This document shows, piece by piece, positions 12,442 through 64,000 of a stretch of DNA of 64,000 nt. The notes below the pieces were generated by a model that worked only from the letters and a program-made list of their open reading frames with translations, searched no databases and had not been told where the DNA came from. Location: positions 4,698,390 to 4,762,389 of the forward strand of contig JASKMD010000003.1 in assembly GCA_030144725.1 (NCBI GenBank). The letters run 5' to 3'. The position numbers and the translations under genes are program-made. How positions within the stretch are numbered: the stretch's first letter is position 1; each line of letters opens with the position of its first letter. The DNA comes from Haematococcus lacustris. Lineage: Eukaryota; Chlorophyta; Chlorophyceae; Chlamydomonadales; Haematococcaceae.

Positions 12442-13704
12442 GCCCCAACTGCAAGCTTCTGGTGTGGCTGCCACTGCCAGCATGCCTGCTAGTGTCCAGT
12501 CATCATGTCAAGGGCGTTGTGGACCTTTGGGTCAGTCATTGTCCTGTATCATACTCGCACACGTAGGCATGGGTATGCATGCTGACCTATGATTTTTGGG
12601 TGGATGTGGTGCACCAAATCGTATCCTGATTGTTGCATTGGGTTGACAGATGTTAAACAGGGCTGTGTGCAAAGTTTCAGGTCAAAACTCACAAGGCAAC
12701 CACGCGTGTTCATCGATTTCATGCAAGAATGAAAGAATGCAAAAGTGAAAGAACGCAAAGTCACAACCCCGCCTCTATGCTTGTTCTAGGCGCTGAAGCA
12801 TCAGGGAGGACACTACATCACTCCGCGATGTCAGATGTTGTCAGCTCATCCAGTCATAATTGGTGTGTGTATGAAATTTCCACTGCAGTGGTGGTTGACC
12901 TCACTCGTGCTCCATGCCCTCCATGCCACATACAACCTAGCACAGCACTCGGGACAGTGTCATAACACTACGGCATGTGTCAGTACCAGCTCCTGCAGTA
13001 CCAGCTCCTGCGCGTAGCGGTCATCCAGACTTAACTTGTGTGTGCAGAACGGTCGACCTCAGTTGTGCAATACATGGTGTTGTAATGCTGAGCGCTCCAT
13101 GCTGGGTTCAACCTAGCACAGCACTCGGACAGTGTCACAACAATCCGACATGTGACTGTGAAACGCGCCCCGGCCAGGGTAGTGTCTTGCTTTTTGCGCA
13201 TTATGGCTGCGGTACCAGCTCGTGCGCGTAGCTATTGCGGCGCACTGAACGCGATAACGGACCGGCCCAATGTCCTATGCGTTCAGCACCAGCAACTAGG
13301 GTCACAACGAGCTATCTAGCTTCAGCGTACCGATACGAAAGCCCCTCTACACAGGGCGTGAGAGTCAGTGTGTGAAAGGCCAACTCCTACGCGTTCTCTA
13401 CCAATCACCAGGGGTCACAGCAACGTATGCCTTGCCAAAACGAACAATCAGTGAGGACGCCATGCCAGGAAGCTCATGTGATAAGCAAGGTGGAACCTGA
13501 GCCAGGGCTGACGGCTTTTCTCTCAACACTGAAGCTGTGCACTGAGACACCACTGCCCTGCAGCCAGCTATCTACCTAGCTTGGGCAGCGAAACCCAGAC
13601 ACATATAATGACTTGCAACAGTTGACAGCAGCTCCAGGATGATAAGACACTCATAGCCAGCCGGGTCCAAAGCACCAGCAAGTGAGCGCCATGCATTGCA
13701 GTGG
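12442..13704. other. 3' flank of CVNH-like copy 1 (duplicated segment)
   Basis: No gene is visible. Blocks here recur behind copy 2 at 21523-22190, for example TGTAATGCTGAGC, CCGGCCAGGG and CAACGAG(C/G)TATCT. A short TACCAGCTCCTGC direct repeat occurs near 12984-13010. The similarity shows that the duplication covers gene plus both flanks. Confidence 0.65.
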
Positions 13705-14316
13705 CCCCTGCCCCTGCCCCTGCCCCTGCCCCTGCCCCTGCCCCTGCCCCTGCCCCTGCCCCTGCCCCTGCCCCTGCCCCTGCCCCTGCCCCTGCCCCTG
13801 CCCCTGCCCCTGCCCCTGCCCCTGCCCCTGCCCCTGCCCCTGCCCCTGCCCCTGCCCCTGCCCCTGCCCCTGCCCCTGCCCCTGCCCCTGCCCCTGCCCC
13901 TGCCCCTGCCCCTGCCCCTGCCCCTGCCCCTGCCCCTGCCCCTGCCCCTGCCCCTGCCCCTGCCCCTGCCCCTGCCCCTGCCCCTGCCCCTGCCCCTGCC
14001 CCTGCCCCTGCCCCTGCCCCTGCCCCTGCCCCTGCCCCTGCCCCTGCCCCTGCCCCTGCCCCTGCCCCTGCCCCTGCCCCTGCCCCTGCCCCTGCCCCTG
14101 CCCCTGCCCCTGCCCCTGCCCCTGCCCCTGCCCCTGCCCCTGCCCCTGCCCCTGCCCCTGCCCCTGCCCCTGCCCCTGCCCCTGCCCCTGCCCCTGCCCC
14201 TGCCCCTGCCCCTGCCCCTGCCCCTGCCCCTGCCCCTGCCCCTGCCCCTGCCCCTGCCCCTGCCCCTGCCCCTGCCCCTGCCCCTGCCCCTGCCCCTGCC
14301 CCTGCCCCTGCCCCTG
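13705..14316. repeat. (CCCCTG)102 microsatellite
   Basis: A perfect, uninterrupted hexamer array of 612 bases. All frames are open (PCPCPC, LPLPLP, APAPAP and their complements), and none is a credible gene. The sequence resuming at 14317 (CTCAATCCCAAGC) and the CAAGCTTCAACTGA just after correspond to CAAGCTCCAATTGA near 22246. Copy 2 therefore carries only a short degenerate CCCCAGCCCC stretch where copy 1 carries this array. Confidence 0.95.
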
Positions 14317-14613
14317 CCTCAATCCCAAGCCTCAATCCCAAGCTTCAACTGAGGCGTGATTGGGCATTCCTAATGGCTGCAGGGGGTGCAACCTGGGCAG
14401 GTGGTCACATTGTTGGCAGGTGGTCTTTGCAACCCACTGATCAAACTTGCAATAGCCTGATACACCCCCCACCATACACTGCCATGCCACACTGGACCAC
14501 ACCTGCTTAGGTTGATGCCCTGGTCAAGTGCAGGATGGCTTAAGGGTGAGGCAGCTGGGCTGGGAGGCAGAACTTGAGGAACCCTGCCAGGGGCCCATCC
14601 CTGGTCCTCAGCT
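14317..14613. other. Spacer between CCCCTG array and duplicated promoter segment
   Basis: No gene seen. Near 14540-14612 it begins to match the region upstream of CVNH-like copy 1 (the GGCCCAT..CTGGTCC..TCATGTAA pattern). Confidence 0.5.
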
Positions 14614-14993
14614 CATGTAACTTGCTCTACACCACCTCACCTCTGGTCTTCTCATATCATCCCTTTCATCTGCCTTCCTGCCTCTCCATCGTCTCGCACG
14701 TGATGCACGCGGTCAGGAAGGATCATCATGGGTAAGCGCAAGAGCCGCGCTGGCTTCGGGTTGCTGTGCTGTGTGCCCTTTTGTTCTATGTGCGCGTTGA
14801 GCACTAGCGCCGGTGCCACGTACCAATTTCCCCCGCCCCCTCCCTCACACCTCTCACACCCGCCAGTACTTAAGATACACTCGTGCCCACAGTGTTCAAT
14901 ATAGCACGCGTGCTTAAAGTGCTGCAACATCTGCACCAAGGCTCGCTGCTAGAGGCTACCAAGCCCCACATCGCTACGCCTTGAAAAGTCGCA
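14614..14993 (+). repeat. 380-bp direct repeat, left copy (orphan CVNH-like upstream segment)
   Basis: From CATGTAACTTGCTCTACACC to TTGAAAAGTCGCA this segment matches 20296-20675 over the same 380 bases with only a few substitutions, and both are in the same orientation. The two copies bracket the large inverted repeat. Only the right copy leads into a CVNH-like gene. Confidence 0.9.
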
Positions 14994-15023
14994 CTTGCAA
15001 ATACCACATATTTGCAAGTGCGT
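14990..15023. other. Hairpin at the left edge of the inverted repeat
   Basis: GCACTTGCAAAT and ATTTGCAAGTGC form a 12-base inverted repeat around a 7-base loop (ACCACAT). ATTTGCAAGTGCG occurs again at the palindrome centre (about 17632-17644), and in the form CGCACTCGCAAAT at its right end. It may be a recombination or terminal signal of the element. Confidence 0.7.
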
Positions 15024-15349
15024 TACAGTTGACCAGATGCCTCCCTATCTAAGGGACACTAGACTCTGCTCAAGGAATCCCAGGCATCACAGACAATGCC
15101 CATCTCCCTGCTGACAAGCCTGATGAACCATGATGAATGCCTGTCAACCACCAAACCAGGCTAGGTGCATGCTGCAGTCAGATGCCAGCTGCAGGGGCTC
15201 AGGCTACGGATCATCTCGGCTTCTCAGAGTTGCCTGCATGTGCCTCAGGACACCACCTTGCTTTTCTGCTGCTCATTACTCATTCTGCACTCATTGTCAC
15301 AGTGCAGCGACATAGTGCACCATGTCCATGCTCCACCTGCGCCTGCTCA

Positions 15350-17537
15350 TTACTCCACAAAGCCCCTAGGACGACGCAACGCCTTCGCACGCGGTCCCAC
15401 CAGCGGTGAACGGCCTGGGATTTGGTTAACGGCGGTAGGGGAAGAGGTGGGGTGATTGGGAGGGGAGGGGGAGGGGGAGGTGGGTGGTAGGTCGTTTCCA
15501 GTCGGCATGTCTGGAAGGTTGGGAGGAAAACCTAGTAGGCCCTGCGTTTGCAGCAGCAGGTCAGGTCAAGGCAGCAGGTCAGGGCAAGGCAGGGCGGTGC
15601 AGGGCAGGGCAGGGCAGGGCAGGGCAGGGCAGGGCAGGGCAGGGTAAGCACCCGAACTGGAAGGGCGGAGAAGTGATCCACTGTTCCCTCCAAGGGGTGC
15701 CGGGGAAAGGGAGGATACTCGTCGTCAGCCCCCGCTCCCACCCCGGCTCCCACCCCCGCCACCGCCCCTGATGCTTCCGCCCCTACCGCCTCTGCTGCCC
15801 CAGCTGCCCCAGCTGCCTGCTCCCTCGCCCCCGCCGCTCCCTCCGCCGCTCCCTCGCCCGCTCCCACCCCCGCTTCCCCACCCTCTCCGCCCCCCAAACC
15901 GGCCCCATCAACCAGCTCCTCCGCCCCCCCCTCCTCCCCAGCCCCAGCACCCGCTCCCTCACCAAACCCACCCCCCGCCTCCTCCCCCCCCGCCTCCTTC
16001 TCTGTCCCTTCCTCCTCCTCCTCCTCTCCCCCCCCCATCCCATCCCCCGCACCAGCCCCTGCTGCGCCCTGTTGCTGCTGCATGACCTTCACCACTTCCT
16101 CAATGGTCGGGATGAAAGGTGCTCTGTCCATACAAAAGGGAGGACGCCCAACACCTTTGCCTTGCGCCCAAGCGGTGGCCTGCGACATGTCCATTGCGTG
16201 GGATGCACGCAGATATGACCACAATAAAAACTCCGCCCTACCATCACGTCATCGTCTACGCCTACACAACACGTTTCCTACAACTACCACGTTCCGTGAA
16301 GGACATCAATCATAATCGGCATCACTCACCATCATGTCTGTCACGACCTTCCGAGGGGGGGGTGGGTTGTCCATGGCGTGACGCAACAGTCGGCACCACT
16401 TAAGGTCAAAAAGCTTGTCAGCTTTCACAGCCCAGTTCAGGATTGCTGCCAATAGGCTGGGGTCCACGCTTTTCATGGCGTCAATGTCGTTGTCCACCCA
16501 GGCGGCCATGAACGCGTTGCCCACGTCCCTCGCGGCCTGCAATCCGCATGCTATACAATTAGATACGGTGGTCATGATCAATCTTGTCTCACGCCTCAGC
16601 GCCTAAACCCATACCTTGTGCTTCATCTGTTTCAACACATTGGTAAGCTCGTGGCGCCGTCGGATTTGCTTGCGCCACTGTCGCGCGTCATACACAGCCA
16701 TCGCCAGCGCCATTGCCTTCTTAATAACCTCTTGTGCAGCACCTTCTGCTCCGTACTCCTACAACGACAAACAACAACGTAGGGCTAATTACTGCATTCA
16801 TGGAGAAATAATGTTTATTTCTGAACTCACCGCCATAGCGTCGTACATGTCTCGTAGGCATTCAGCTAGGTGTCGGTCTGCGGGGGCGGACTGCGTGTCC
16901 GCCTCCAGCTCCGCCTACGACATACAACAAGGAACTAGAATACGCGAGTGTAATTGTAACGCGACTCATGTTCCATGAACAACGTGTACATACAAATATA
17001 TGAATTGCATTTGGATATACCCCTGCTCTCACCACCAGCGCGGTAGCCAACCTCCGGCGCTTGGGGAGGTCGAAAGTGGGGTCTCCGCGCATGTCCTTGG
17101 CGAAGATGGAATCGGGGGGGACGGGCGGGAACCCCGCCACCCTGACATGTGGGCGGGGATATGGCTTGTACGCCTCCGGCAGGTCCACCAACGCCTGTCA
17201 ACGAGGACATCAAGCATATGCACCAGTGTTACAACCACATGGCACATCAATGGCATGTGCCGTCTTTTAATGTCACTGTGTGAGCAGCAACGTAATAGGG
17301 TGTGTGGGCTTCTCGTACCTTAGAGACATCAGCACAATCACCCTCCAACAGGGACCTCGCCAGTCCATCGCTTCGTGGGAAAGGGCGGTTAGGGTCATCG
17401 CCGGCCGCCAACCTCCGGTCCAATTCGCGATCCACGCTGTCAACCCATTGCACAGGGTATGATACTGCTTCTATTTTCTTCACACGACCGCCGCTCCTCA
17501 CGGTGAATGAGTGTTCCCATCTGTGTTTGTGAGCACC
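15350..17537 (-). CDS. 5'-truncated seven-exon gene of unknown family, left-arm copy
   Basis: Exons (minus, 5' to 3'): 17319-17537, 17033-17194, 16831-16914, 16615-16758, 16330-16536, 15652-16179, 15350-15541. Every exon is a multiple of three with phase-0 GT-AG introns, giving 511 codons to a TAA. The first visible exon begins after TTCAG and has no start codon of its own; anything 5' of it is cut off at the palindrome centre. Visible parts: basic KHRWEHSF, charged helices (AEGAAQEVIKKAMAL, RQWRKQIRRRHELTNVL), KLFDLKWCRLLRHAMD, PFIPTIEEVVKVMQQQQ, then a long Gly/Glu/Ala acidic low-complexity segment and a Pro/Ser-rich tail. I do not recognise the family. Its place in a palindrome suggests cargo or part of a mobile element. 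The second-exon acceptor (CAG|GCG) is intact here but altered in the other arm. Confidence 0.6.
15590..15645. repeat. (GGGCA)n in left arm
   Basis: About nine GGGCA pentamers lie in the last intron of the left-arm gene. The mirrored CCCTG run is at about 19647-19700; the two arms differ in copy number, which shifts the outer arm register by 10 bases. Confidence 0.85.
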
Positions 17538-17751
17538 CTGAACACAAGACATACGGCTGACATAAACAGGCCAACCTCACACAACACAGGAGAACATACA
17601 CACACACACAACCACACAACACATACCCCATATTTGCAAGTGCGACTTGCAAGTGTGTTGTGTGGTTGTGTGTGTGTATGTTCTCCTGTGTGTGTGCGAT
17701 GTGGTTGTGTGAGGTTGGCCTGTTTATGTCAGCCGTATGTCTTGTGTTCAG

Positions 17752-19949
17752 GGTGCTCACAAACACAGATGGGAACACTCATTCACCGTGAGGAGCGGCG
17801 GTCGTGTGAAGAAAATGGAAGCAGTATCATACCCTGTGCAATGGGTTGACAGCGTGGATCGCGAATTGGACCGGAGGTTGGCGGCCGGCGATGACCCTAA
17901 CCGCCCTTTCCCACGAAGCGATGGACTGGCGAGGTCCCTGTTGGAGGGTGATTGTGCTGATGTCTCTAAGGTACGAGAAGCCCACACACCCTATTACGTT
18001 GCTGCTCACACAGTGACATTAAAAGACGGCACATGCCATTGATGTGCCATGTGGTTGTAACACTGGTGCATATGCTTGATGTCCTCGTTGACGAGCGTTG
18101 GTGGACCTGCCGGAGGCGTACAAGCCATATCCCCGCCCACATGTCAAGGCGGCGGGGTTCCCGCCCGTCCCCCCCGATTCCATCTTCGCCAAGGACATGC
18201 GCGGAGACCCCACTTTCGACCTCCCCAAGCGCCGGAGGTTGGCTACCGCGCTGGTGGTGAGAGCAGGTGTATATCCAAATGCAATTCATATATTTGTATG
18301 TACACGTTGTTCATGGAACATGAGTCGCGTTACGATTACACTCGCGTATTCTAGTTCCTTGTTGTATGTCGTAGGCGGAGCTGGAGGCGGACACGCAGTC
18401 CGCCCCCGCAGACCGACACCTAGCTGAATGCCTACGAGACATGTACGACGCTATGGCGGTGAGTTCAGAAATAAACATTATTTCTCCATGAATGCAGTAA
18501 TTAGCCCTACGTTGTTGTTTGTCGTTGTAGGAGTACAGAGCAGAAGGTGCTGCACAAGAGGTTATTAAGAAGGCAATGGCGCTGGCGATGGCTGTGTATG
18601 ACGCGCGACAGTGGCGCAAGCAAATCCGACGGCGCCACGAGCTTACCAATGTGTTGAAACAGATGAAGCACAAGGTATGGGTTTAGGCGCTGAGGCGTGA
18701 GACAAGATTGATCATGACCACCGTATCTAATTGTATAGCATGCGGATTGCAGGCCGCGAGGGACGTGGGCAACGCGTTCATGGCCGCCTGGGTGGACAAC
18801 GACATTGACGCCATGAAAAGCGTGGACCCCAGCCTATTGGCAGCAATCCTGAACTGGGCTGTGAAAGCTGACAAGCTTTTTGACCTTAAGTGGTGCCGAC
18901 TGTTGCGTCACGCCATGGACAACCCACCCCCCCCTCGGAAGGTCGTGACAGACATGATGGTGAGTGATGCCGATTATGATTGATGTCCTTCACGGAACGT
19001 GGTAGTTGTAGGAAACGTGTTGTGTAGGCGTAGACGATGACGTGATGGTAGGGCGGAGTTTTTATTGTGGTCATATCTGCGTGCATCCCACGCAATGGAC
19101 ATGTCGCAGTCCACCGCTTGGGCGCAAGGCAAAGGTGTTGGGCGTCCTCCCTTTTGTATGGACAGAGCACCTTTCATCCCGACCATTGAGGAAGTGGTGA
19201 AGGTCATGCAGCAGCAACAGGGCGCAGCAGGGGCTGGTGCGGGGGATGGGATGGGGGGGGGAGAGGAGGAGGAGGAGGAAGGGACAGAGAAGGAGGCGGG
19301 GGGGGAGGAGGCGGGGGGTGGGTTTGGTGAGGGAGCGAGTGCTGGGGCTGGGGAGGAGGGGGGGGCGGAGGAGTTGGTTGATGGGGCCGGTTTGGGGGGC
19401 GGAGAGGGTGGGGAAGCGGGGGTGGGAGCGGGCGAGGGAGCGGCGGAGGGAGCGGCGGGGGCGAGGGAGCAGGCAGCTGGGGCAGTTGGGGCAGCAGAGG
19501 CGGTAGGGGCGGAAGCATCAGGGGCGGTGGCGGGGGTGGGAGCCGGGGTGGGAGCGGGGGCTGACGACGAGTATCCTCCCTTTCCCCGGCACCCCTTGGA
19601 GGGAACAGTGGATCACTTCTCCGCCCTTCCAGTTCGGGTGCTTACCCTGCCCTGCCCTGCCCTGCCCTGCCCTGCCCTGCCCTGCCCTGCCCTGCCCTGC
19701 ACCGCCCTGCCTTGCCCTGACCTGCTGCCTTGACCTGACCTGCTGCTGCAAACGCAGGGCCTACTAGGTTTTCCTCCCAACCTTCCAGACATGCCGACTG
19801 GAAACGACCTACCACCCACCTCCCCCTCCCCCTCCCCTCCCAATCACCCCACCTCTTCCCCTACCGCCGTTAACCAAATCCCAGGCCGTTCACCGCTGGT
19901 GGGACCGCGTGCGAAGGCGTTGCGTCGTCCTAGGGGCTTTGTGGAGTAA
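17752..19949 (+). CDS. 5'-truncated seven-exon gene of unknown family, right-arm copy
   Basis: Exons: 17752-17970, 18095-18256, 18375-18458, 18531-18674, 18753-18959, 19110-19637, 19758-19949, the mirror of the left-arm gene, also 511 codons with phase-0 introns. Both copies are transcribed outward from the palindrome centre. The acceptor of the second exon reads GACGAG|CG here instead of GACAG|GCG on the left. Splicing at the new AG would shift the frame, so this copy may be broken. A few substitutions change residues in the acidic region (SAGAGEE against GAGAGEE, AVGAAEA against AAGAAEA). No domain is recognised. The conserved reading frame in both arms suggests that the coding function was recent. 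Confidence 0.55.
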
Positions 19950-20295
19950 TGAGCAGGCGCAGGTGGAGCATGGACATGGTGCACTATGTCGCTGCACTGT
20001 GACAATGAGTGCAGAATGAGTAATGAGCAGCAGAAAAGCAAGGTGGTGTCCTGAGGCACATGCAGGCAACTCTGAGAAGCCGAGATGATCCGTAGCCTGA
20101 GCCCCTGCAGCTGGCATCTGACTGCAGCATGCACCTAGCCTGGTTTGGTGGTTGACAGGCATTCATCATGGTTCATCAGGCTTGTCAGCAGGGAGATGGG
20201 CATTGTCTGTGATGCCTGGGATTCCTTGAGCAGAGTCTAGTGTCCCTTAGATAGGGAGGCATCTGGTCAACTGTAACGCACTCGCAAATATGTAA

Positions 20296-20675
20296 CATGT
20301 AACTTGCTCTACACCACCTCACCTCTGGTCTTCTCATATCATCCCTTTCATCTGCCTTCCTGCCTCTCCATCGTCTCGCACGTGATGCACGCGGTCAGGA
20401 AGGATCATCATGGGTAAGCGCAAGAGCCGCGTTGGCTTCGGGTTGCTGTGCTGTGTGCCCTTTTGTTTTATGTGCGCGTTGAGCACTAGCGCCGGTGCCA
20501 CGTACCAATTTCCCCCGCCCCCTCCCTCACACCTCTCACACCCGCCAGTACTTAAGATACACTCGTGCCCACAGTGTTCAATATAGCACGCGTGCTTAAA
20601 GTGCTGCAACATCTGCACCAAGGCTCGCTGCTAGAGGCTACCAAGCCCCACATCGCTACGCCTTGAAAAGTCGCA
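20296..20675 (+). repeat. 380-bp direct repeat, right copy (upstream of CVNH-like copy 2)
   Basis: This segment matches 14614-14993 without a gap. It begins 3 bases after the right end of the inverted repeat and leads toward CVNH-like copy 2, whose upstream/promoter region it probably is. Confidence 0.88.
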
Positions 20676-20694
20676 AACCCAGGCAAGTTTCATC

Positions 20695-20892
20695 GCAAAT
20701 GTCTCGCACTAGTTTCGCGCTAGTGTCGCACTAGTGTCGCGCACTAGTGTCGCGCTAGTGTCGCACTAGTGTCGCGTTAGTGTCTCGCTAGTGTTGCGTG
20801 TTTGGCTAGTGTCTCGCTAGTTTCTCGCTAGTGTCTCGCTAGTGTCGCACTAGTGTCGCGCTAGCGTCGCACTAGTGTCGCGCACTAGTGAT
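20695..20892. repeat. Degenerate CACTAGTGTCGCG tandem repeat upstream of CVNH-like copy 2
   Basis: Roughly 16 repeats of a 9-14-base unit built on (C/G)CTAGTGTCGC, many containing the palindrome CACTAGTG, fill the 200 bases before the gene. The matching place upstream of copy 1 has only one related GCAATAGTGTC motif, so the expansion is specific to copy 2. It could be a protein-binding cluster or just a minisatellite. Confidence 0.75.
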
Positions 20893-20953
20893 CGCGCGAC
20901 TTGACAGGCTGGACATCCACCCCCCTTGCCCGCCCCGTCCCTCGCTTGCAGGC

Positions 20954-21522
20954 ATGCAGCGCGGTATGAGGAACGCGGCCCGGGCCCTGCTACTCTTGGC
21001 GCTATTGTGCCTGTCCCAAGGTCAGTCTGCCAGCTTCCCCTGCAGCTACCTCATCTTGCCACTGCCAAGTGGCCATGGTTCCTTGTGTGGTGCCCCATCC
21101 TCCACCCCCTCAACATCTGTCTGCGTCATGTGCTCTGGGGAGTTGTATTTTTCAGGGTGCTAACTGCCTGACAGCAACAGCTGGCGTGCACCGGGCTGCT
21201 CACTATTGCAGCCAGGCATAAGGGTGTTGGCATGCACGATGTTGGAGGCTGACCTGTTTGCATGCGTGTGCGCACCTAGTGTGCTGATAGTGCTTTCCTA
21301 GGTGTGGCTGCAGGATGGGGCGTGGCTGCACAAAGGTCACCCGATGGCAGCTATCAGGAAACATGTGACGATTGTGCATGGACGTCTTTCACCGTCTTCG
21401 CTTGCGGAAGTTGCAAGACAGATAGTGGCAGACGGGTGCCGGCGTCCCTGAGGAGTGCGGACAGGTGTGGCGAAGAGGTATCCAACTGTGATGGTGTGCT
21501 GCGGTGCACCAAAAGCTGCTAG
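20954..21522 (+). CDS. Secreted cysteine-rich CVNH-like protein, copy 2 (91 aa)
   Basis: Exon 1 (20954-21020, 67 bases) has the same length, phase and signal-peptide design as copy 1 (MQRGMRNAA, ALLLLALLCLSQG). Exon 2 (21314-21522) starts after GGCTGCAG and ends at TAG. The mature part reads GSYQETCDDCAW, FACGSCKTDSG, RCGEEVSNC and DGVLRCTKSC. Compared with copy 1 it lacks 23 residues in the middle, including one cysteine pair. The GSY-x3-C start and N-x-DGxLxC end again resemble a CVNH domain. The intron keeps recognisable similarity to that of copy 1. Both genes face the same way, consistent with a tandem duplication later split by the palindrome. Confidence 0.65.
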
Positions 21523-22626: not shown

Positions 22627-23344
22627 GCATGTCGAGAGTTGTTGGGCAGAGACATCATCCATGGCATTCCAGTCTGTGGTTGAAACTATGCTGTAATTGC
22701 CTGCATTTTTACATTTAGCTGAAATCAAGGCAATGCACTACTGGAACCATATATAACAACCCCTATCAGTTTCGTTGCTGAATATCACGTCCGTGCTCCT
22801 TGGCACCACATAGTGTGTGATGTGACGTGGTTCCCTGTCAATGTGCACTCACTGCATGCTTGGTGGTTCAGCCGGTTTTATTGCGTACCTTATGCCACAA
22901 CGAGCTTAAACGTGTGGTTTCAGCCCAGATGTCGGCGTGGCTGGACCGGGGGCCGGGTTTGCAGCAACCCTGCATGGTCGCAGTCGGGTCCACGGTTAGT
23001 GAGCCACACGCGCTCATTTTTGCAGCTAGGCAATGGAACAAACGTCACTGTTCTGACCTGCATCGTCGGCCGCATCACTTGCAAGGGGCAGAAAAGTCAG
23101 CACGACAGCCATAACAAGCTTTGCGATGTGCACGGGGTATAGAGCACCCCACTACGTCGACTGGACACTTCCCAATGCTACACTTGGTCCAGATGGCGGG
23201 CTACGGGGGTTAACATGCGACAGGGAGATAACAGCGATGCGCTGAACCCAGCGGTGCATGTCTTACATGCTGGGATGGCCTGTATGTCATACGCAGAAAT
23301 ATTTGAAATTTCCTCAGGACGTGTCACAACTGATTAGGGCGTGC

Positions 23345-24120
23345 CGGGTCTTAAGACCCGCCTGATGTTTTGGGTCCTAAAGGTCTTAAGACCGGTACTA
23401 GAGGTCTTAAGACCTGAAAGTGGCACTTATGCGAGAGGTCCCTAGATCGGTTCCTGTCAGGGTCGGGTATGCTCACCTTCGGAGTGATAGAATGAAGTAT
23501 CGCTAGTGGATTGGGCCAGTCTATCGGGGTTACAGGGGTAGGGATTACAACAGTGGCAGAGCCCGCAACGGCGGCTTGTGCAACATGCAACACACAATTT
23601 TACTGACGGTCGAGTGTGAGGGAGTGAGGGAGTTTGCGGCCTGACGCTGTGGCGCCCGTTCTTTGTAGAAGCGTCATCATCGCGCTGCGCTGAACAGGAT
23701 GGGCGCCACAGCTCGTATCATGGCCGAGTTTGCGGCCTGGTCACTCGCTTACTGTGAGAGCAACCATGAAGCAAGGCGTGACTGCGGCTATGGTATATGG
23801 GTACTGTAAGCCTCATCACACTGTAAGCCTCATTTCGGGCGCTCCGGCGTGGTCGCGATATTTCCGATGGGTTGCCCTGGTGCACAATGGCACATCGACA
23901 CTCAGACAGTTACATCCGGCATAGGCCACTGCACTCTACTCATAGGTACTCATTTGTACTTTTAGGTCCAGCGAGCTTCGGCTGGAGGATGAGTGTCTTC
24001 GGTGTCGGGCGGTGTAAGACTGACAGGCGTAGTCATAGCGCTAGTGGCGCTGATGTGTGCCGCCGGTGGGCCGGTGGGGTCTTAAGACCCCGTTCAAAAT
24101 CCTCAGGGTCTTAAGACCCG
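23345..24120. mobile_element. Palindrome-ended element with five GGTCTTAAGACC motifs (copy 1)
   Basis: Three copies of the palindrome GGTCTTAAGACC cluster at the left (23345-23415) and two at the right (24077-24120). The outermost ones are extended to GGGTCTTAAGACCC and are followed by similar TGA.G.TTTT sequence when read inward. This arrangement suggests a non-autonomous element with palindromic terminal and subterminal repeats. No ORF with a known domain lies inside. It sits immediately 5' of the hAT C-terminal segment. Confidence 0.55.
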
Positions 24121-24140
24121 GGTCATAATAGGACCTGGCC

Positions 24141-24541
24141 GGGAACGCCCTACAGCTGATCCTAGACACCTGGCCGGAGCCAGAGTACGCTGTTGGCATG
24201 GGGCTCAAGACATGGACAGGTCTGCACCGGACCTGACAGCTTACCCAGTGGCCTTGTGGCGCAGGTATGGTAAGAAGGTGCCACACCCACAAGTTGGGGC
24301 GTAGCGCGTGGTCAGCATCGCCGCCACCTCAGCTGCCACTGAACACCTATTCAGTGCTATTAAGTTCATCTGGAGCGACCAGCGCTCTCGCTTGTTGCTA
24401 GGGCGCATGTGGATCATGTCCTATGTGTTATTCAACACACGGGTCATGACTCGCAAGGAGCACCACGCATTAGCTGAGGCGCAAGAGGAGTGGGAGAGCT
24501 TCGTGGCAGCCCAGGTAGTGCTCAATGCCCCTCAGCTGTAG
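24141..24541 (+). pseudogene. hAT transposase C-terminal (dimerisation) fragment, array copy 1
   Basis: The frame reads LWRRYGKKVPHPQVGA, a TAG, then RVVSIAATSAATEHLFSAIKF, IWSDQRSRLLLGRMWIMSYVLFN. This is the hAT-family C-terminal dimerisation domain (atSAatEhlFS ... R..L......mm.y...N). The in-frame TAG at about 24302 and a frame change upstream show decay. The rest of the gene would lie in the gap to the left. Confidence 0.85.
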
Positions 24542-24676
24542 CATGCACGTACACCCCACAATGGCATTGCACGACAGGGCTTGTGATGGGCAGCCTGAAG
24601 CGGGCAGCCTGTAGCGCGCAGCCTGGAGCTGGATGCTTTTATTTTTGTTGTGTGTTGTTGTGTTGTCTCACCTTGT

Positions 24677-24705
24677 TTATTATTATTATTATTATTATTA
24701 TTATT
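24677..24705. repeat. (ATT)n, array copy 1
   Basis: About nine ATT triplets; the second copy is equal and the third is six triplets longer. Confidence 0.95.
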
Positions 24706-25434
24706 TGTTTTTTGCCAGGAGTCTACAGACATACAACCACCTATCCAGCCCAGCCCAGCCCAGCCGAGCCCAGCCCAGTGTGGTGTTGTGTGGAGTGGTG
24801 CTGACTTGTCTTGACGTAGTGGTGCTGTGACTTGGTGTTGTGTGGTGTGGTGTAAAATGGTGTTGACTTGTGCTGTGGACTTATGCAAGTATCCCCGTCT
24901 TGACTGGTACGATTTGGTAAGACCCTGCACAGGGGTGGTATTGGTAGGACCTATACAGGGTTGGTAAGGTCTTCTATCAATATGCCTAGTGTCGAACGAT
25001 TAACGTAAGAAACTTTGTAGCTCTGTAATTCTGCATCACTGAACATCATATCTGAATTTCCTACGTTCCAAACGGGTTGTGAACTATTGATTGGTTGCTT
25101 GTATGTTAGGTGGCTGTGTTGACACTGAGCAGCACCTTCCATTGGGTGGGAGAGAGGGGGTGGGAATAAGAGAGGGGTGATTGGGGATGAAGGTGGCGTG
25201 AGACACTCAATTGAACCACATAAACAAAATCAAGCAAGCAAGGGATAGTACTTACCAGTGTAAGAGTCATACACTCGAGTAGCACTACATCTAGCAGCAC
25301 ATGGGGCAAGCGTCATTCATCCCTGACTGCGAACAGACCTACTGGCTGCAGATGGTGCTGATAGCAGCATGGCAAGGGCCAGCACCAGCATGGCTACATA
25401 GTGTCTTGGCCACGTCGTAGTGGCCGTAGCAGGG

Positions 25435-26565
25435 TCACACAAACGCACCCATCATCTCCCCCTTGTTGTCCACCTTGTTGTACCGTTCCCCTGCACGCAT
25501 CAGACACTGACCTCATCAGTGCCCTGCCAGCTGCCATGCCGCAGCTTGGGTTGTGTTTCCCTCTGTCATGTCTACACAGACTGTGTTAGCATTTGCTCCA
25601 AGTGCTGTGCACCCAGCCTAATCCTGACCTCATCAGTGCCCTGCCAGCCGTGCCGCAGCTTAGGTCCTATTCCAGTCTATTATGTCTACTCTGCCTGTGT
25701 ATGCGTTTGTTGCAGTGCCAGTGCCAGTGCTTTGCACCCTGCCTTACTCCTCTCACAGCTGCCCACTGCATTGCCATACAGCTTGGCTACCCATAGGCGT
25801 GCCCCAAAGCTCAATCATTCAGAAGTAATGTGCATGGCAACACAGCCACGGCACAGCACCCTCTCCTATGCACTGCCATGTCGTAATTGCCTTGCCATCA
25901 ACATGCACTCACAGTCGCCAGCAATGGGTGCGGCCACCAGGTGGTCAGGGATGCCAAAGCTGTCCACCAGCTGTTGAGACACTGGCCCCAGACTGGCAAC
26001 CAGGCTGCGCACCAGGTCAGGCACGTGACGCCCAACCTGCGCATGGCATGCAAGCATGCAGCTCTACTAGTACCACGGACCACAGAATCTGTTAGGCACA
26101 GCTTTGCTGATGAGGCGGTCTGAAAAAGTCAGCACTTTGCTTGGGCAACATTGCAGCCCAAGGAAGAGCTGCTGTGGTAACTGGGCAGTGGGCGTGCATG
26201 AGCTGAAGACGTTAACGAGTGACTCACCATCAGGGACGAGCTACAGTGGTGCTGTGTGCAGCAGCAGCTGCCCATGAGCTGAGAATGTCAACAATGTCAA
26301 CAATGCAGGCTGGCTTACACCAGGGAGGCAAGATGTTGCCCTTGGAGTTGCGCATGGAGTTTGCCATGAAGGCGGAGGCTGTGCCCCAAGCAGCCTGTGT
26401 ACTTCATGTGTGACACATCAGAGCGTCACACTTGCTCAGTCTGCACCTGAGGGCTGAGGATGCCCTCCGCCATGAACCAAGCCAGGTCTTGCTCCACGCA
26501 GCGTGCAGCAAACAGGCGAGCGCAGGCCTCCAGCACGCAGCGTACCGCGAGGGAGGGTTGCTTGC
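25435..26565 (-). pseudogene. Acyl-CoA oxidase 3'-end duplicate (exons 20-22), array copy 1
   Basis: Exons at 26447-26565, 25913-26036 and 25435-25490 repeat exons 20-22 of the intact oxidase at 38737-50946 almost without change ([48 protein letters not shown]). Upstream exons are absent: at 27209 the sequence switches from oxidase intron 19 to hAT sequence. Without a promoter or exons 1-19 it cannot make an oxidase. Confidence 0.9.
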
Positions 26566-28405
26566 CTGCACAGGCAGCAGTCGGGCAGGCAGGTGAGCTG
26601 AGCGGGTGACTCAGCAGGTGAGCTGAGCTGAGCAGCTGAGTCTAATGTGCTGCTATCAGCGTCAGATGCGTTCATGGTAAAGCCGATCGTGGCAGTGGAG
26701 AGGGATGAGGAGCAAGCAAGTAGGGAAAGCGGGCTCAGCCCAGCAAACTCAAACGAGCAAGCTGCTGGGGTCAGGACAGGCAAGATACAAGGCCATTGAG
26801 GATCAACGTTGGAATCAGTAGGTTTGGTACAGCTTCAATGCAAGCAGCACAACAGGAAAGAGGACGGGAGTGAGGAGCTTGCTGTACCCAGATGTTTACC
26901 AATATGTACAACCCAAATGGGCGCCTTAGCCATTGCAGGTAACAGCAGCATGTGGCAGACTGGCTACGGTCGAGCAGGTCACGGTTCCAGCAGGCGGTGA
27001 AAGGCCAGAGGGCATGAGCGGCACGCAAGCAGCTTGATTTGCCAGACAAGTGGCTCAACAGCACCTGGGACCTGCAGCCCTTGGACCCTCGAGGTTGTGC
27101 GCAGTGTAGGCAGGCCCAGCCAGCTTTGACAGATGTGGCAGTGGATGGGGAGGTGTGTGGTGAAGGGCGAAAGATGATATAGGTGCATTGTGGCAGCGGG
27201 GGCAGGGGGTACGGGGACCATGGCTTTGGCTAGGGACTCTACCACCATGGGTGCATTGCACACGGGCCAGATTTGTGGGCTGGTGACGGACACACCCTTG
27301 GGCATGCAGAAGCTGTGGCGGCAGTGGAGGCAGCCATGCCCAAGGTCTTGGCAATGGGCTGCTGGGCGCACATCTTGAACCTCTTCTTCACAGGTCAGAT
27401 AGCTATGTATATCCCATGCTCTACATGTTTAGAGGTCCACACTACCACCTCCCAACACAATCCCTCAACCTCCCATACCCCAGCCTCGTGCCTTGGCATG
27501 GCCCCATGCATGGCGCTATGTTATACGCATTGTGGCATCAGCGCATATGTCTTACACTCTCCAGATGTCAAGAAGCTCCCCGGCATCTTGGAGCACATTG
27601 AGGAGGCAAAGGACATCGTAAACCTCTTCGCCCCCGCCAGGTCACCTCGCAGGAGTGGCTGCGCAATCCAAAGCAAGGCTCAAACGGGTGCCCATGTGTG
27701 CAACCAGGTTCAGCGGCATGTACAAGATGTTGCGGAGCTTGCAGCAGAACAAGCAGGCTCTCACCAACACAGTGGTGTTGCGTGGGTTGGACGCCGATGA
27801 GCGCTCAAAGCTGGTCAAGAATTGTGTGCTGTCTGAGCCATGGTGGGAAAAGAAAAAGAACTGGTTGGTGGAGTTAATGGTCCCCGTGGCTCAGCCGTTG
27901 ACAGCCAACCAAGCAGGTCACGCCAACCTTGACGACGTACACTATGGCTCGGCCATAGCGGATAAGTGGTTTGGTGATGCCACCAGGTGAGACACTACCT
28001 CCACCACTACTTCCACCACCACCACCATTACCATCACCTTTACCATCATCTTCACCTTTTGATGCCCTGCCACCCTTTCTCAGTCCCCTTCCTGCCCCAA
28101 CCCAGACCTCCTCAACACCTCACCCCACCCCACCCCAAGTAGCTCTCGTCGAATGTGTACAGGAAGGTGCCCATAGAGTTTGTGGACGACGTGATGGAGC
28201 TGGAGCAAGTGTTCCGCAAGCGCATGGACTACGGGCACCATGTCGCTCTCTACCTAGCTGCCCTGCTAGACCCCAGGAACCGCCACGAGGCTTACAACCT
28301 GACCATTGACGAGGTGTGGGCTGCAGAGGAGCTGGCTAGTAAGCTAGCAAGCGCGGATGGTGATGGCAAGGATGCAGGTGGCAATGCCGCGCGCCTAGAG
28401 CTCCT

Positions 28406-29093
28406 GGTCACCCCCGCCATTGGCTGCACCCCTGATAACATCTTATTGGTTTTTTAGAGTTTTACAGCGATTCTTGAACAGGGCAGTGCAGCTCATCAGT
28501 GCGAAGCTGGCGGGCTGCTCGGGCTGATGTGCACCTTTGCCGGGGTCGGCGGGCTCAAACATTTGAATTTTCAAATATAGGCCTTTTTTGCTGTCCAGTT
28601 AACAGCCCAACCAGGATGTCAAATGAAGAACTGCAAGTTCTGTTCGATTATTCGTGTGGGATATTAACGTGTCTATGAGACAGAAACGCGTTACCTCCAA
28701 GTGTGGGCCGTTTCATGTGTGGGCGGTCAACACAGTTAACAGCTCATTTTCTACATCTTTTTGACCGATTTTTGCTGCGCGTGGTTGCTCGTGAGCCACA
28801 GGCATCAATGTATGAAGTATCTTGTGCAACCTGAAAAGTTGCGATGTCCAGTCCAAATGCGAAATGCACGTCGAGCTGGGTCCAGGCTACCTATACCAGT
28901 CGCTTAGATTGCCTGCGAGGCTCCAGAACACGTCGCGTGTTGGGGGCCAGCCACCCGGCAAACCGCTGGGGCTGGCTGCACTCTAGTCAGGCCATCGCAA
29001 GCTCATCGCACCAATCGGCGACCTCATCCGTGCAGAAATGAGTTAGATGTTATCTCTTGAGCCATGGGGGTGCAGCCAATGGCGGGGGTGACC
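28406..29093. mobile_element. MITE with perfect 27-bp terminal inverted repeats (copy 1)
   Basis: Bases 28406-28432 (starting GGTCACCCCCGCC) are the exact reverse complement of 29067-29093. TCCT lies directly on both sides and may be a 4-base target duplication. The 688-bp interior has no coding frame of note and includes an AT-rich CATTTGAATTTTCAAATATAGG stretch. It interrupts the hAT transposase reading frame directly after ARLEL. Confidence 0.88.
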
Positions 29094-29986
29094 TCCTAGT
29101 CTAGCCTAGTTGATGCACTTGCCTTACTCGACACTAAGGACACGGATGAACGGTACTCTTGTGAATGAACTACTTGTAGCACATGCGCGCCCCACACCTG
29201 CACATCTTGCCTTTTGTAGGGATGTGGGGCTGTTGGCATGCACCTGCAAAGCATTCATAGCAAGTGTTGCATGTCGAGAGTTGTTGGGCAGAGACATCAT
29301 CCATGGCATTCCAGTCTGTGGTTGAAACTATGCTGTAATTGCCTGCATTTTTACATTTAGCTGAAATCAAGGCAATGCACTACTGGAACCATATATAACA
29401 ACCCCTATCAGTTTCGTTGCTGAATATCACGTCCGTGCTCCTTGGCACCACATAGTGTGTGATGTGACGTGGTTCCCTGTCAATGTGCACTCACTGCATG
29501 CTTGGTGGTTCAGCCGGTTTTATTGCGTACCTTATGCCACAACGAGCTTAAACGTGTGGTTTCAGCCCAGATGTCGGCGTGGCTGGACCGGGGGCCGGGT
29601 TTGCAGCAACCCTGCATGGTCGCAGTCGGGTCCACGGTTAGTGAGCCACACGCGCTCATTTTTGCAGCTAGGCAATGGAACAAACGTCACTGTTCTGACC
29701 TGCATCGTCGGCCGCATCACTTGCAAGGGGCAGAAAAGTCAGCACGACAGCCATAACAAGCTTTGCGATGTGCACGGGGTATAGAGCACCCCACTACGTC
29801 GACTGGACACTTCCCAATGCTACACTTGGTCCAGATGGCGGGCTACGGGGGTTAACATGCGACAGGGAGATAACAGCGATGCGCTGAACCCAGCGGTGCA
29901 TGTCTTACATGCTGGGATGGCCTGTATGTCATACGCAGAAATATTTGAAATTTCCTCAGGACGTGTCACAACTGATTAGGGCGTGC
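29094..29986. other. Unassigned sequence between MITE and GGTCTTAAGACC element
   Basis: Two overlapping short plus-strand frames occur, one at 29110-29325 (with LLACTCKAFIASVACRELLG) and one at 29455-29784. Neither resembles a known family to me. The segment recurs at 22627-23344 (part) and 35736-36628. Confidence 0.5.
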
Positions 29987-30762
29987 CGGGTCTTAAGACC
30001 CGCCTGATGTTTTGGGTCCTAAAGGTCTTAAGACCGGTACTAGAGGTCTTAAGACCTGAAAGTGGCACTTATGCGAGAGGTCCCTAGATCGATTCCTGTC
30101 AGGGTCGGGTATGCTCACCTTCGGAGTGATAGAATGAAGTATCGCTAGTGGATTGGGCCAGTCTATCGGGGTTACAGGGGTAGGGATTACAACAGTGGCA
30201 GAGCCCGCAACGGCGGCTTGTGCAACATGCAACACACAATTTTACTGACGGTCGAGTGTGAGGGAGTGAGGGAGTTTGCGGCCTGACGCTGTGGCGCCCG
30301 TTCTTTGTAGAAGCGTCATCATCGCGCTGCGCTAAACAGGATGGGCGCCACAGCTCGTATCATGGCCGAGTTTGCGGCCTGGTCACTCGCTTACTGTGAG
30401 AGCAACCATGAAGCAAGGCGTGACTGCGGCTATGGTATATGGGTACTGTAAGCCTCATCACACTGTAAGCCTCATTTCGGGCGCTCCGGCGTGGTCGCGA
30501 TATTTCCGATGGGTTGCCCTGGTGCACAATGGCACATCGACACTCAGACAGTTACATCCGGCATAGGCCACTGCACTCTACTCATAGGTACTCATTTGTA
30601 CTTTTAGGTCCAGCGAGCTTCGGCTGGAGGATGAGTGTCTTCGGTGTCGGGCGGTGTAAGACTGACAGGCGTAGTCATAGCGCTAGTGGCGCTGATGTGT
30701 GCCGCCGGTGGGCCGGTGGGGTCTTAAGACCACGTTCAAAATCCTCAGGGTCTTAAGACCCG
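29987..30762. mobile_element. Palindrome-ended GGTCTTAAGACC element (copy 2)
   Basis: Same structure as at 23345-24120. The fourth palindrome is damaged here (GGTCTTAAGACCACG instead of the extended GGGGTCTTAAGACCCC). Confidence 0.55.
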
Positions 30763-31318
30763 GGTCATAATAGGACCTGGCCGGGAACGCCCTACAGCTG
30801 ATCCTAGACACCTGGCCGGAGCCAGAGTACGCTGTTGGCATGGGGCTCAAGACATGGACAGGTCTGCACCGGACCTGACAGCTTACCCAGTGGCCTTGTG
30901 GCGCAGGTATGGTAAGAAGGTGCCACACCCACAAGTTGGGGCGTAGCGCGTGGTCAGCATCGCCGCCACCTCAGCTGCCACTGAACACCTATTCAGTGCT
31001 ATTAAGTTCATCTGGAGCGACCAGCGCTCTCGCTTGTTGCTAGGGCGCATGTGGATCATGTCCTATGTGTTATTCAACACACGGGTCATGACTCGCAAGG
31101 AGCACCACGCATTAGCTGAGGCGCAAGAGGAGTGGGAGAGCTTCGTGGCAGCCCAGGTAGTGCTCAATGCCCCTCAGCTGTAGCATGCACGTACACCCCA
31201 CAATGGCATTGCACGACAGGGCTTGTGATGGGCAGCCTGAAGCGGGCAGCCTGTAGCGCGCAGCCTGGAGCTGGATGCTTTTATTTTTGTTGTGTGTTGT
31301 TGTGTTGTCTCACCTTGT

Positions 31319-31347
31319 TTATTATTATTATTATTATTATTATTATT
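31319..31347. repeat. (ATT)n, array copy 2
   Basis: About nine ATT triplets, equal to copy 1. Confidence 0.95.
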
Positions 31348-32076
31348 TGTTTTTTGCCAGGAGTCTACAGACATACAACCACCTATCCAGCCCAGCCCAG
31401 CCCAGCCGAGCCCAGCCCAGTGTGGTGTTGTGTGGAGTGGTGCTGACTTGTCTTGACGTAGTGGTGCTGTGACTTGGTGTTGTGTGGTGTGGTGTAAAAT
31501 GGTGTTGACTTGTGCTGTGGACTTATGCAAGTATCCCCGTCTTGACTGGTACGATTTGGTAAGACCCTGCACAGGGGTGGTATTGGTAGGACCTATACAG
31601 GGTTGGTAAGGTCTTCTATCAATATGCCTAGTGTCGAACGATTAACGTAAGAAACTTTGTAGCTCTGTAATTCTGCATCACTGAACATCATATCTGAATT
31701 TCCTACGTTCCAAACGGGTTGTGAACTATTGATTGGTTGCTTGTATGTTAGGTGGCTGTGTTGACACTGAGCAGCACCTTCCATTGGGTGGGAGAGAGGG
31801 GGTGGGAATAAGAGAGGGGTGATTGGGGATGAAGGTGGCGTGAGACACTCAATTGAACCACATAAACAAAATCAAGCAAGCAAGGGATAGTACTTACCAG
31901 TGTAAGAGTCATACACTCGAGTAGCACTACATCTAGCAGCACATGGGGCAAGCGTCATTCATCCCTGACTGCGAACAGACCTACTGGCTGCAGATGGTGC
32001 TGATAGCAGCATGGCAAGGGCCAGCACCAGCATGGCTACATAGTGTCTTGGCCACGTCGTAGTGGCCGTAGCAGGG

Positions 32077-33207
32077 TCACACAAACGCACCCATCATCTC
32101 CCCCTTGTTGTCCACCTTGTTGTACCGTTCCCCTGCACGCATCAGACACTGACCTCATCAGTGCCCTGCCAGCTGCCATGCCGCAGCTTGGGTTGTGTTT
32201 CCCTCTGTCATGTCTACACAGACTGTGTTAGCATTTGCTCCAAGTGCTGTGCACCCAGCCTAATCCTGACCTCATCAGTGCCCTGCCAGCCGTGCCGCAG
32301 CTTAGGTCCTATTCCAGTCTATTATGTCTACTCTGCCTGTGTATGCGTTTGTTGCAGTGCCAGTGCCAGTGCTTTGCACCCTGCCTTACTCCTCTCACAG
32401 CTGCCCACTGCATTGCCATACAGCTTGGCTACCCATAGGCGTGCCCCAAAGCTCAATCATTCAGAAGTAATGTGCATGGCAACACAGCCACGGCACAGCA
32501 CCCTCTCCTATGCACTGCCATGTCGTAATTGCCTTGCCATCAACATGCACTCACAGTCGCCAGCAATGGGTGCGGCCACCAGGTGGTCAGGGATGCCAAA
32601 GCTGTCCACCAGCTGTTGAGACACTGGCCCCAGACTGGCAACCAGGCTGCGCACCAGGTCAGGCACGTGACGCCCAACCTGCGCATGGCATGCAAGCATG
32701 CAGCTCTACTAGTACCACGGACCACAGAATCTGTTAGACACAGCTTTGCTGATGAGGCGGTCTGAAAAAGTCAGCACTTTGCTTGGGCAACATTGCAGCC
32801 CAAGGAAGAGCTGCTGTGGTAACTGGGCAGTGGGCGTGCATGAGCTGAAGACGTTAACGAGTGACTCACCATCAGGGACGAGCTACAGTGGTGCTGTGTG
32901 CAGCAGCAGCTGCCCATGAGCTGAGAATGTCAACAATGTCAACAATGCAGGCTGGCTTACACCAGGGAGGCAAGATGTTGCCCTTGGAGTTGCGCATGGA
33001 GTTTGCCATGAAGGCGGAGGCTGTGCCCCAAGCAGCCTGTGTACTTCATGTGTGACACATCAGAGCGTCACACTTGCTCAGTCTGCACCTGAGGGCTGAG
33101 GATGCCCTCCGCCATGAACCAAGCCAGGTCTTGCTCCACGCAGCGTGCAGCAAACAGGCGAGCGCAGGCCTCCAGCACGCAGCGTACCGCGAGGGAGGGT
33201 TGCTTGC
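32077..33207 (-). pseudogene. Acyl-CoA oxidase 3'-end duplicate (exons 20-22), array copy 2
   Basis: Exons at 33089-33207, 32555-32678 and 32077-32132 repeat oxidase exons 20-22. The break with hAT sequence is at 33851/33852, the same junction as in copy 1, so both junctions descend from one event. Confidence 0.9.
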
Positions 33208-35047
33208 CTGCACAGGCAGCAGTCGGGCAGGCAGGTGAGCTGAGCGGGTGACTCAGCAGGTGAGCTGAGCTGAGCAGCTGAGTCTAATGTGCTGCTATCA
33301 GCGTCAGATGCGTTCATGGTAAAGCCGATCGTGGCAGTGGAGAGGGATGAGGAGCAAGCAAGTAGGGAAAGCGGGCTCAGCCCAGCAAACTCAAACGAGC
33401 AAGCTGCTGGGGTCAGGACAGGCAAGATACAAGGCCATTGAGGATCAACGTTGGAATCAGTAGGTTTGGTACAGCTTCAATGCAAGCAGCACAACAGGAA
33501 AGAGGACGGGAGTGAGGAGCTTGCTGTACCCAGATGTTTACCAATATGTACAACCCAAATGGGCGCCTTAGCCATTGCAGGTAACAGCAGCATGTGGCAG
33601 ACTGGCTACGGTCGAGCAGGTCACGGTTCCAGCAGGCGGTGAAAGGCCAGAGGGCATGAGCGGCACGCAAGCAGCTTGATTTGCCAGACAAGTGGCTCAA
33701 CAGCACCTGGGACCTGCAGCCCTTGGACCCTCGAGGTTGTGCGCAGTGTAGGCAGGCCCAGCCAGCTTTGACAGATGTGGCAGTGGATGGGGAGGTGTGT
33801 GGTGAAGGGCGAAAGATGATATAGGTGCATTGTGGCAGCGGGGGCAGGGGGTACGGGGACCATGGCTTTGGCTAGGGACTCTACCACCATGGGTGCATTG
33901 CACACGGGCCAGATTTGTGGGCTGGTGACGGACACACCCTTGGGCATGCAGAAGCTGTGGCGGCAGTGGAGGCAGCCATGCCCAAGGTCTTGGCAATGGG
34001 CTGCTGGGCGCACATCTTGAACCTCTTCTTCACAGGTCAGATAGCTATGTATATCCCATGCTCTACATGTTTAGAGGTCCACACTACCACCTCCCAACAC
34101 AATCCCTCAACCTCCCATACCCCAGCCTCGTGCCTTGGCATGGCCCCATGCATGGCGCTATGTTATACGCATTGTGGCATCAGCGCATATGTCTTACACT
34201 CTCCAGATGTCAAGAAGCTCCCCGGCATCTTGGAGCACATTGAGGAGGCAAAGGACATCGTAAACCTCTTCGCCCCCGCCAGGTCACCTCGCAGGAGTGG
34301 CTGCGCAATCCAAAGCAAGGCTCAAACGGGTGCCCATGTGTGCAACCAGGTTCAGCGGCATGTACAAGATGTTGCGGAGCTTGCAGCAGAACAAGCAGGC
34401 TCTCACCAACACAGTGGTGTTGCGTGGGTTGGACGCCGATGAGCGCTCAAAGCTGGTCAAGAATTGTGTGCTGTCTGAGCCATGGTGGGAAAAGAAAAAG
34501 AACTGGTTGGTGGAGTTAATGGTCCCCGTGGCTCAGCCGTTGACAGCCAACCAAGCAGGTCACGCCAACCTTGACGACGTACACTATGGCTCGGCCATAG
34601 CGGATAAGTGGTTTGGTGATGCCACCAGGTGAGACACTACCTCCACCACTACTTCCACCACCACCACCATTACCATCACCTTTACCATCATCTTCACCTT
34701 TTGATGCCCTGCCACCCTTTCTCAGTCCCCTTCCTGCCCCAACCCAGACCTCCTCAACACCTCACCCCACCCCACCCCAAGTAGCTCTCGTCGAATGTGT
34801 ACAGGAAGGTGCCCATAGAGTTTGTGGACGACGTGATGGAGCTGGAGCAAGTGTTCCGCAAGCGCATGGACTACGGGCACCATGTCGCTCTCTACCTAGC
34901 TGCCCTGCTAGACCCCAGGAACCGCCACGAGGCTTACAACCTGACCATTGACGAGGTGTGGGCTGCAGAGGAGCTGGCTAGTAAGCTAGCAAGCGCGGAT
35001 GGTGATGGCAAGGATGCAGGTGGCAATGCCGCGCGCCTAGAGCTCCT

Positions 35048-35735
35048 GGTCACCCCCGCCATTGGCTGCACCCCTGATAACATCTTACTGGTTTTTTAGA
35101 GTTTTACAGCGATTCTTGAACAGGGCAGTGCAGCTCATCAGTGCGAAGCTGGCGGGCTGCTCGGGCTGATGTGCACCTTTGCCGGGGTCGGCGGGCTCAA
35201 ACATTTGAATTTTCAAATATAGGCCTTTTTTGCTGTCCAGTTAACAGCCCAACCAGGATGTCAAATGAAGAACTGCAAGTTCTGTTCGATTATTCGTGTG
35301 GGATATTAACGTGTCTATGAGACAGAAACGCGTTACCTCCAAGTGTGGGCCGTTTCATGTGTGGGCGGTCAACACAGTTAACAGCTCATTTTCTACATCT
35401 TTTTGACCGATTTTTGCTGCGCGTGGTTGCTCGTGAGCCACAGGCATCAATGTATGAAGTATCTTGTGCAACCTGAAAAGTTGCGATGTCCAGTCCAAAT
35501 GCGAAATGCACGTCGAGCTGGGTCCAGGCTACCTATACCAGTCGCTTAGATTGCCTGCGAGGCTCCAGAACACGTCGCGTGTTGGGGGCCAGCCACCCGG
35601 CAAACCGCTGGGGCTGGCTGCACTCTAGTCAGGCCATCGCAAGCTCATCGCACCAATCGGCGACCTCATCCGTGCAGAAATGAGTTAGATGTTATCTCTT
35701 GAGCCATGGGGGTGCAGCCAATGGCGGGGGTGACC
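35048..35735. mobile_element. MITE with 27-bp terminal inverted repeats (copy 2)
   Basis: Array duplicate of the element at 28406-29093, with the same flanks and TIRs; it differs by at least one base (TTACTGG against TTATTGG near its left end). Confidence 0.88.

Positions 35736-37959: not shown

Positions 37960-37960
<1 letters not shown>

Positions 37961-38007
<47 letters not shown>
37961..38007. repeat. (ATT)n, expanded in array copy 3
   Basis: About fifteen ATT triplets, 18 bases longer than in the other two copies; this alone accounts for the 6660- against 6642-base unit length. Confidence 0.95.

Positions 38008-51813: not shown

Positions 51814-64000
<12,187 letters not shown>

Follow-up and report, generated by a model that had tools for sequence, protein, structure and literature searches.

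A 5.3-kb palindrome of gene fragments between 380-bp direct duplications in Haematococcus lacustris, and its possible origin by fold-back insertion

How does a near-perfect palindrome of 5.3 kb come to stand in the genome of a green alga, when long palindromes with short spacers are expected to be unstable? The question is raised by a 64,000-nt stretch of the Haematococcus lacustris genome (the window, meaning the whole stretch analysed; Table 1), in which two outward-facing fragments of a gene that we call gene2 form the arms of such a palindrome. We lean towards an origin in which an inverted dimer, made by fold-back, was inserted in one event.

Compared with its reverse complement, the segment 15006–20293 is 98.4% identical across 5,306 aligned columns, a length and identity that cannot arise by chance. 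Aligned with one another, the arms are identical at 2570 of 2594 positions, with 11 gap positions (~99%). The innermost 40-bp pair, 83% complementary, defines a spacer of 30 nt; the long arm pair gives 52 nt and a strict ungapped count 118 nt, the latter owing to an indel close to the centre. The near-perfect, short-spacer palindrome described in a first-pass annotation of this DNA is therefore real in the assembled sequence. Twenty of 2,595 columns differ between the arms, and seven of these (17589–17599) were excluded from the divergence because the indel shifts the alignment there, which leaves 13 substitutions (0.5%) over ~2,580 columns. Polarised with a relative on contig C83 as outgroup, four substitutions fall on the left arm and eight on the right, with one assigned to neither. 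Two indels, of 10 nt in a GCAGG repeat and of ~14 nt near the centre, complete the differences, and with this much change in ~2.6 kb the recent origin proposed by the same annotation holds only loosely.

The palindrome lies between two direct copies of a 380-bp target, the left one ending exactly at the left joint. When 14400–14993 is joined to 20676–21400, the product matches a paralogous locus, L013, at 95.7% over 1,317 bp, unbroken across the joint; this empty site is a paralogue and not an allele. The target was thus probably present once before the insertion, which would have brought the 380-bp duplication with it. The two target copies differ at 2 of 380 positions (0.53%), against 0.5% for the arms, and this equal divergence suggests that formation of the palindrome and its insertion were probably one event.

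Short templated pieces mark the joints and the centre. At the left joint, the last CGCA of the target and the 12-nt filler together contain CGCACTTGCAAATA, which repeats the arm end 15009–15022, 5 bp further in, exactly and in inverted orientation. The centre holds ATATTTGCAAGTGCG, an exact 15-nt copy of the arm end 15008–15022, and the right joint, ATGTAAC-ATGTAAC, repeats the target's own bases. An 18-nt match to the left joint had suggested that the centre was templated from the broken target; we dropped this reading because the arm end accounts for all but ~4 nt and the motif is itself palindromic. The target (14600–15020) belongs to a repeat family arranged in direct tandem arrays, with a spacing of ~2.4 kb on the window's contig, C175, and of ~2.7 kb on contig C176. 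We found no paper that joins a palindrome, a target duplication and a transposon.

Both arms carry gene fragments. The genes face outwards with their 5′ part missing at the centre, as had been noted from the sequence, and the C83 relative has more upstream exons. Where seven exons and 511 codons had been proposed, we find six exons and a frame to the stop of 487 codons in the left arm and 479 in the right, the latter read across a broken splice acceptor of the second exon. The earlier remark that the palindrome survives with open frames does not stand, since both copies are fragments and one has this broken splice site. The arms depart from the C83 gene at 15644 and 19645, where they enter the GCAGG/CCCTG repeat, so the 3′ end of the frame is read-through into simple repeat. 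Because the C83 copy has the upstream exons and a different, longer 3′ end, the gene in the arms is truncated on either side. The outermost ~640 bp of each arm, this repeat included, differs from gene2 as known in C83. Within it, 219 bp (15026–15244) resemble at 65–69% a dispersed repeat of ~270 bp found three times on contig C143 and twice on C89; the first 49 bp are 90% identical to the C89 copies.

The C83 copy matches the arm at 94% over 1.98 kb, about three quarters of its length, in a single form. It carries an in-frame stop, and on the right it disappears into a retrotransposon and an N gap. Among the best 40 of 392 candidates, the whole arm is matched strongly by itself and, in part, by C83; most other matches (65–73%) are to its C-rich tract. 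For the outer 549 bp, the two window arms are the only strong matches (7 of 7 candidates scored). As an alternative to recent origin, the first-pass annotation had suggested an active mobile element whose end structure is unusual; for the exact unit these searches do not bear this out, the whole arm being found here only and a part of it on C83.

The gene2 protein gave no significant match in Pfam or PHROGs, including any known replication or nuclease domain, which agrees with the earlier judgement that its family is unrecognised. In the best 7,991 candidates its only two relatives are hypothetical proteins of H. lacustris, P0001 (92% over 40% of the query) and P0002 (47% over 73%). With P0002 as query, 6,112 candidates yielded itself and three more, all from H. 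lacustris, and the family has so far been seen in Haematococcus only. An AlphaFold model from a five-sequence alignment has a mean pLDDT of 40, too low to be usable, and we recognised no description of the family among the top-ranked papers. Two other candidates in the window were set aside: a cyanovirin-like identity for the downstream gene, for which Pfam offers no support, and a non-coding RNA, for which there are only sub-threshold miRNA matches to the central CA/GT hairpin.

Inverted pairs recur in this family. With the P0002 protein as query, the genome returned 49 matches from 64 of 64 candidates scored, and 33 of these, clustered at 16 kb, define 13 loci. Copies on both strands occur at 6 of the 13, and near-identical inverted copies at five, on four contigs; the sixth both-strand locus, C83, has two diverged copies. 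The notion of a mobile element thus gains something from the wider family, in which three other loci have inverted pairs with spacers of 22, 32 and 43 nt. The C89b palindrome spans at least 12.5 kb and extends well past the gene. At C182, read in pieces only, parts of four copies alternate −,+,−,+ at 99.1–100% identity, and the tail-to-tail joint is palindromic, whereas the stretch at one head-to-head joint is not. The palindrome centre lies on one side of the gene at C143 and on the other at C89b, although the two hold the same element (long matches 83–93% identical); this argues against a fixed terminal inverted repeat. Centres and joints vary between the family loci. A telomere-like TTAGGG array (L065:2325–2440, C89:2402324–2402440), reading inward, separates the C89a palindrome from an N gap.

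Three control families were compared. The family of the window flank, run before the pattern was noticed (best 40 of 51 candidates, 40 of 42 matches), has copies on both strands at 0 of 15 loci and forms direct tandem arrays. The family of P0003, a recombinase-like protein described below, has 0 of 27 (best 86 of 327 candidates; loci from 37 of 115 matches). Reverse transcriptases (PF00078), chosen after the pattern was noticed and clustered by eye from the best 150 of 4,540 candidates, have 3 of ~143, counts that cover strand only and not copy identity. Fisher tests give p = 7e-6 for 6/13 against 3/143, p = 2.7e-5 for 5/13 against 3/185 and p = 3.7e-4 for 5/13 against 0/42. With candidates scored in part, an unscored partner copy could escape the controls, which are also unmatched to the gene2 family in copy age and assembly gaps (N gaps adjoin C143 and C89a). 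The excess of inverted pairs is a strong lead and not proof.

Table 1. Positions of the palindrome, its flanks and contents in the window, and of inverted pairs at other gene2-family loci
Feature	Position	Strand or orientation	Remarks
Window	C175:4698390-4762389		308-Mb assembly, 597 contigs
Left target copy	14614..14993	+	378/380 identical to right copy; single copy at paralogous empty site L013
Left-joint filler	14994..15005	+	12 nt
Left arm	15006..17623	-	carries gene2 fragment, minus strand; self-alignment
Outer left arm	15006..15555		no match to C83 gene region; 15026-15244 like ~270-bp dispersed repeat
GCAGG repeat, left arm	15556..15644		end of gene2 fragment
gene2 fragment, left arm	15645..17537	-	six exons with introns; first exon present starts 17537, last 16179
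Central spacer	17624..17653	+	30 nt, TACCCCATATTTGCAAGTGCGACTTGCAAG; includes ATATTTGCAAGTGCG
Right arm	17654..20293	+	carries gene2 fragment, plus strand; self-alignment
gene2 fragment, right arm	17752..19644	+	six exons with introns; acceptor 18093-18094 GA instead of AG
CCCTG repeat, right arm	19645..19743		
Right-joint filler	20294..20295	+	2 nt, gives ATGTAAC-ATGTAAC
Right target copy	20296..20675	+	starts 2 nt past right arm end
C143 inverted pair	5105353-5115175	convergent	99.4%; strict-count spacer 22 nt
C89a inverted pair	2402747-2406029 vs 2408202-2411832	convergent	~99%, outermost 280 bp 90%; 2.2-kb spacer
C89b inverted pair	at least 2424453-2437000	outward-facing	98.5-99.1%; strict-count spacer 43 nt
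C182 palindrome	centred 1802697	tail-to-tail	98.4% over 1.4 kb; strict-count spacer 32 nt

What one would look for after a fold-back insertion is found at the window locus: two inverted copies of one locus, a short spacer, joints with short templated pieces and an empty site in a paralogue, alongside the target duplication and the equal divergence of arms and flanks. From these we infer a strand fold-back, a staggered break and the following order of steps. A DNA strand would have been copied from a truncated, chimeric gene2 copy, ending in intron 2; its CA/GT-rich 3′ end would have folded back and primed copying of the strand upon itself up to the 5′ end; the result would be a palindrome of 5.3 kb closed by a loop of ~30 nt. 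The palindrome would then have been captured at a long-staggered break upstream of a host gene, where fill-in of both 380-nt overhangs would create the direct duplication; the fillers at the joints and the centre may stem from template switching at short homologies. As an alternative of the same kind, one replication tract could have left the target at 14993, copied the donor both ways and returned 380 bp upstream. The other gene2-family loci look as if they record similar events, with centres at different positions of the gene, and their recurrence suggests that something in the family's replication or location may favour the formation of inverted dimers by fold-back.

Yeast offers the closest comparison. 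There, among complex events in rad27 and rtt105 mutants, insertions that join two inverted fragments of one locus are the most frequent class (15 of 23 in rad27, 14 of 18 in rtt105), and fold-back inside transformed single-stranded DNA (ssDNA) was directly tested, according to the portions of the report available (PMC11724301). The shared traits are two fragments of one locus in opposite orientation, a short spacer and short homologies at the joints; the 380-bp target duplication and the apparent recurrence in one family are, as far as those portions go, peculiar to the alga (PMC11724301). Filling in of complementary 3′ overhangs is known to produce tandem duplications (PMC8355091, in the part available), and direct duplication of the break region is common to both cases, whereas here, in an alga and by a mechanism that we infer, a palindrome lies between the copies. 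Several points weigh against a fold-back insertion. The assembly yielded no donor that shares the outer 549 bp (7 of 7 candidates scored), the nearest donor-like locus being the partial, 94% relative at C83. The outer ends of the two arms coincide to the nucleotide, a coincidence that calls for a defined strand end. General repair is no explanation for an excess of inverted pairs in one family, and the palindrome is known from assembled sequence. The inverted insertions of yeast are shorter, with a median of 50 bp in one mutant and of 150 bp in another, by the available portions of that report, against arms of 2.6 kb here (PMC11724301).

Could the family instead be an uncharacterised mobile replicon, copied through ssDNA or hairpin ends, for which inverted dimers are normal and of which the window holds a defective one? 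The near-identical inverted pairs at 5 of 13 loci on four contigs and the alternating C182 copies would fit, as would the 13-nt AAGTGCGTTACAG at the window arm end, which recurs once, left of the C83 unit, and could be a shared terminus or chance. A further point in its favour is a weakly tyrosine-recombinase-like gene at C83, whose exons lie at L009:4469–6645 (C83:6409468–6411644) on the minus strand; gene2 starts ~0.25 kb away on the opposite strand, facing away from it. In Pfam this gene reaches E = 3.8e-4 for Phage_integrase, below the cut-off, and its homologue P0003, of a family with at least 27 loci in the genome, E = 1.1e-5 for NDC10_II, just under it; against solved structures, one search gave nothing and another a single weak match (E 0.35). 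In the stretches read, however, the recombinase gene was found at C83 only and not in the window or at other family loci, outer ends common to the loci are not demonstrated, the centres vary, and gene2 has no recognisable replication or nuclease domain, so that we regard this replicon as unlikely. We give similarly little credence to the broader form of the idea, an unrecognised algal element, carried by this helix-rich family, with ssDNA or hairpin intermediates, that repeatedly leaves inverted dimers with loops of some tens of nucleotides, in part at breaks where the target was duplicated over hundreds of bases. Crypton elements use a tyrosine recombinase and have short (4–6 bp) terminal direct repeats, in the available portion of their description (PMC3212892). 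The likeness to them is the C83 relative beside its recombinase-like gene, and the difference is the window's 380-bp direct duplication and palindrome, neither of them a Crypton trait in that portion (PMC3212892); since the window unit has this duplication and no recombinase, Crypton-like membership is not shown.

Near-identity of palindrome arms is kept by gene conversion on animal Y chromosomes, and gene2 could likewise be an ampliconic host gene, with one ordinary rearrangement at each locus and conversion between arms thereafter. The extent of the C89b palindrome far beyond the gene fits this, as does the crowding of arm differences at C143 (L067/L068), where 19 of 26 differing columns, mostly transitions, fall in the inner ~1 kb (5109286–5110199). 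It leaves the target duplication and the empty site in the window unexplained, however, and with arms and target copies equally diverged no extra homogenising is necessary; we judge it improbable. Palindromes are also a known weak point of assembly, and C143, C89a and C83 adjoin N gaps, as might be expected of an artefact from hairpin or chimeric reads. Against this, there is no N in the window from 14000 to 21500 or in C89b (L069) or C182 (L074). A separately named Haematococcus gene set, V8C86DRAFT, holds three family genes that are identical in the exons they share; for each of them the listed contig is 309,046 bp long, presumably a single contig. A missed adapter or hairpin read is unlikely for the window because its flanks are direct and not inverted copies and because the arms differ, with changes on each side by outgroup; overall an artefact is very unlikely. 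The least credible account is an ordinary cut-and-paste transposon with long terminal inverted repeats. It would supply long inverted arms between direct target duplications, yet known transposases make, to our knowledge, target duplications of about 2–11 bp. The 380-bp duplication and the unconserved centres disfavour it, and no second copy of the arrangement was found in the searches with the whole arm and its outer 549 bp.

Insertions flanked by duplications are familiar in plants. What a fold-back insertion would make of the palindrome locus is a readable fossil of complex nuclear repair, in which a multi-kilobase fold-back, templated fillers and a long target duplication can be read against an empty paralogue. 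The family's bias toward inverted pairs is the surprising part, and its cause, like the mobility of the family, is unproven. If the bias holds, the family would be a natural system for asking why some sequences become long palindromes with short spacers and how the alga keeps them. In H. lacustris, the plastid and mitochondrial genomes too are reported to have been colonised by palindromic elements, according to the part of the source available (PMC7043297).

Elsewhere in the window, a 6,642-bp unit is repeated head to tail ~2.7 times at 22627–40515, its copies 99.4–99.7% identical. Very long, nearly pure short tandem repeats occur at 58577–60712 (TGCC, 534 times), 13704–14318 (GCCCCT, 102 times) and 52094–52727 (CTGCCC, 106 times).

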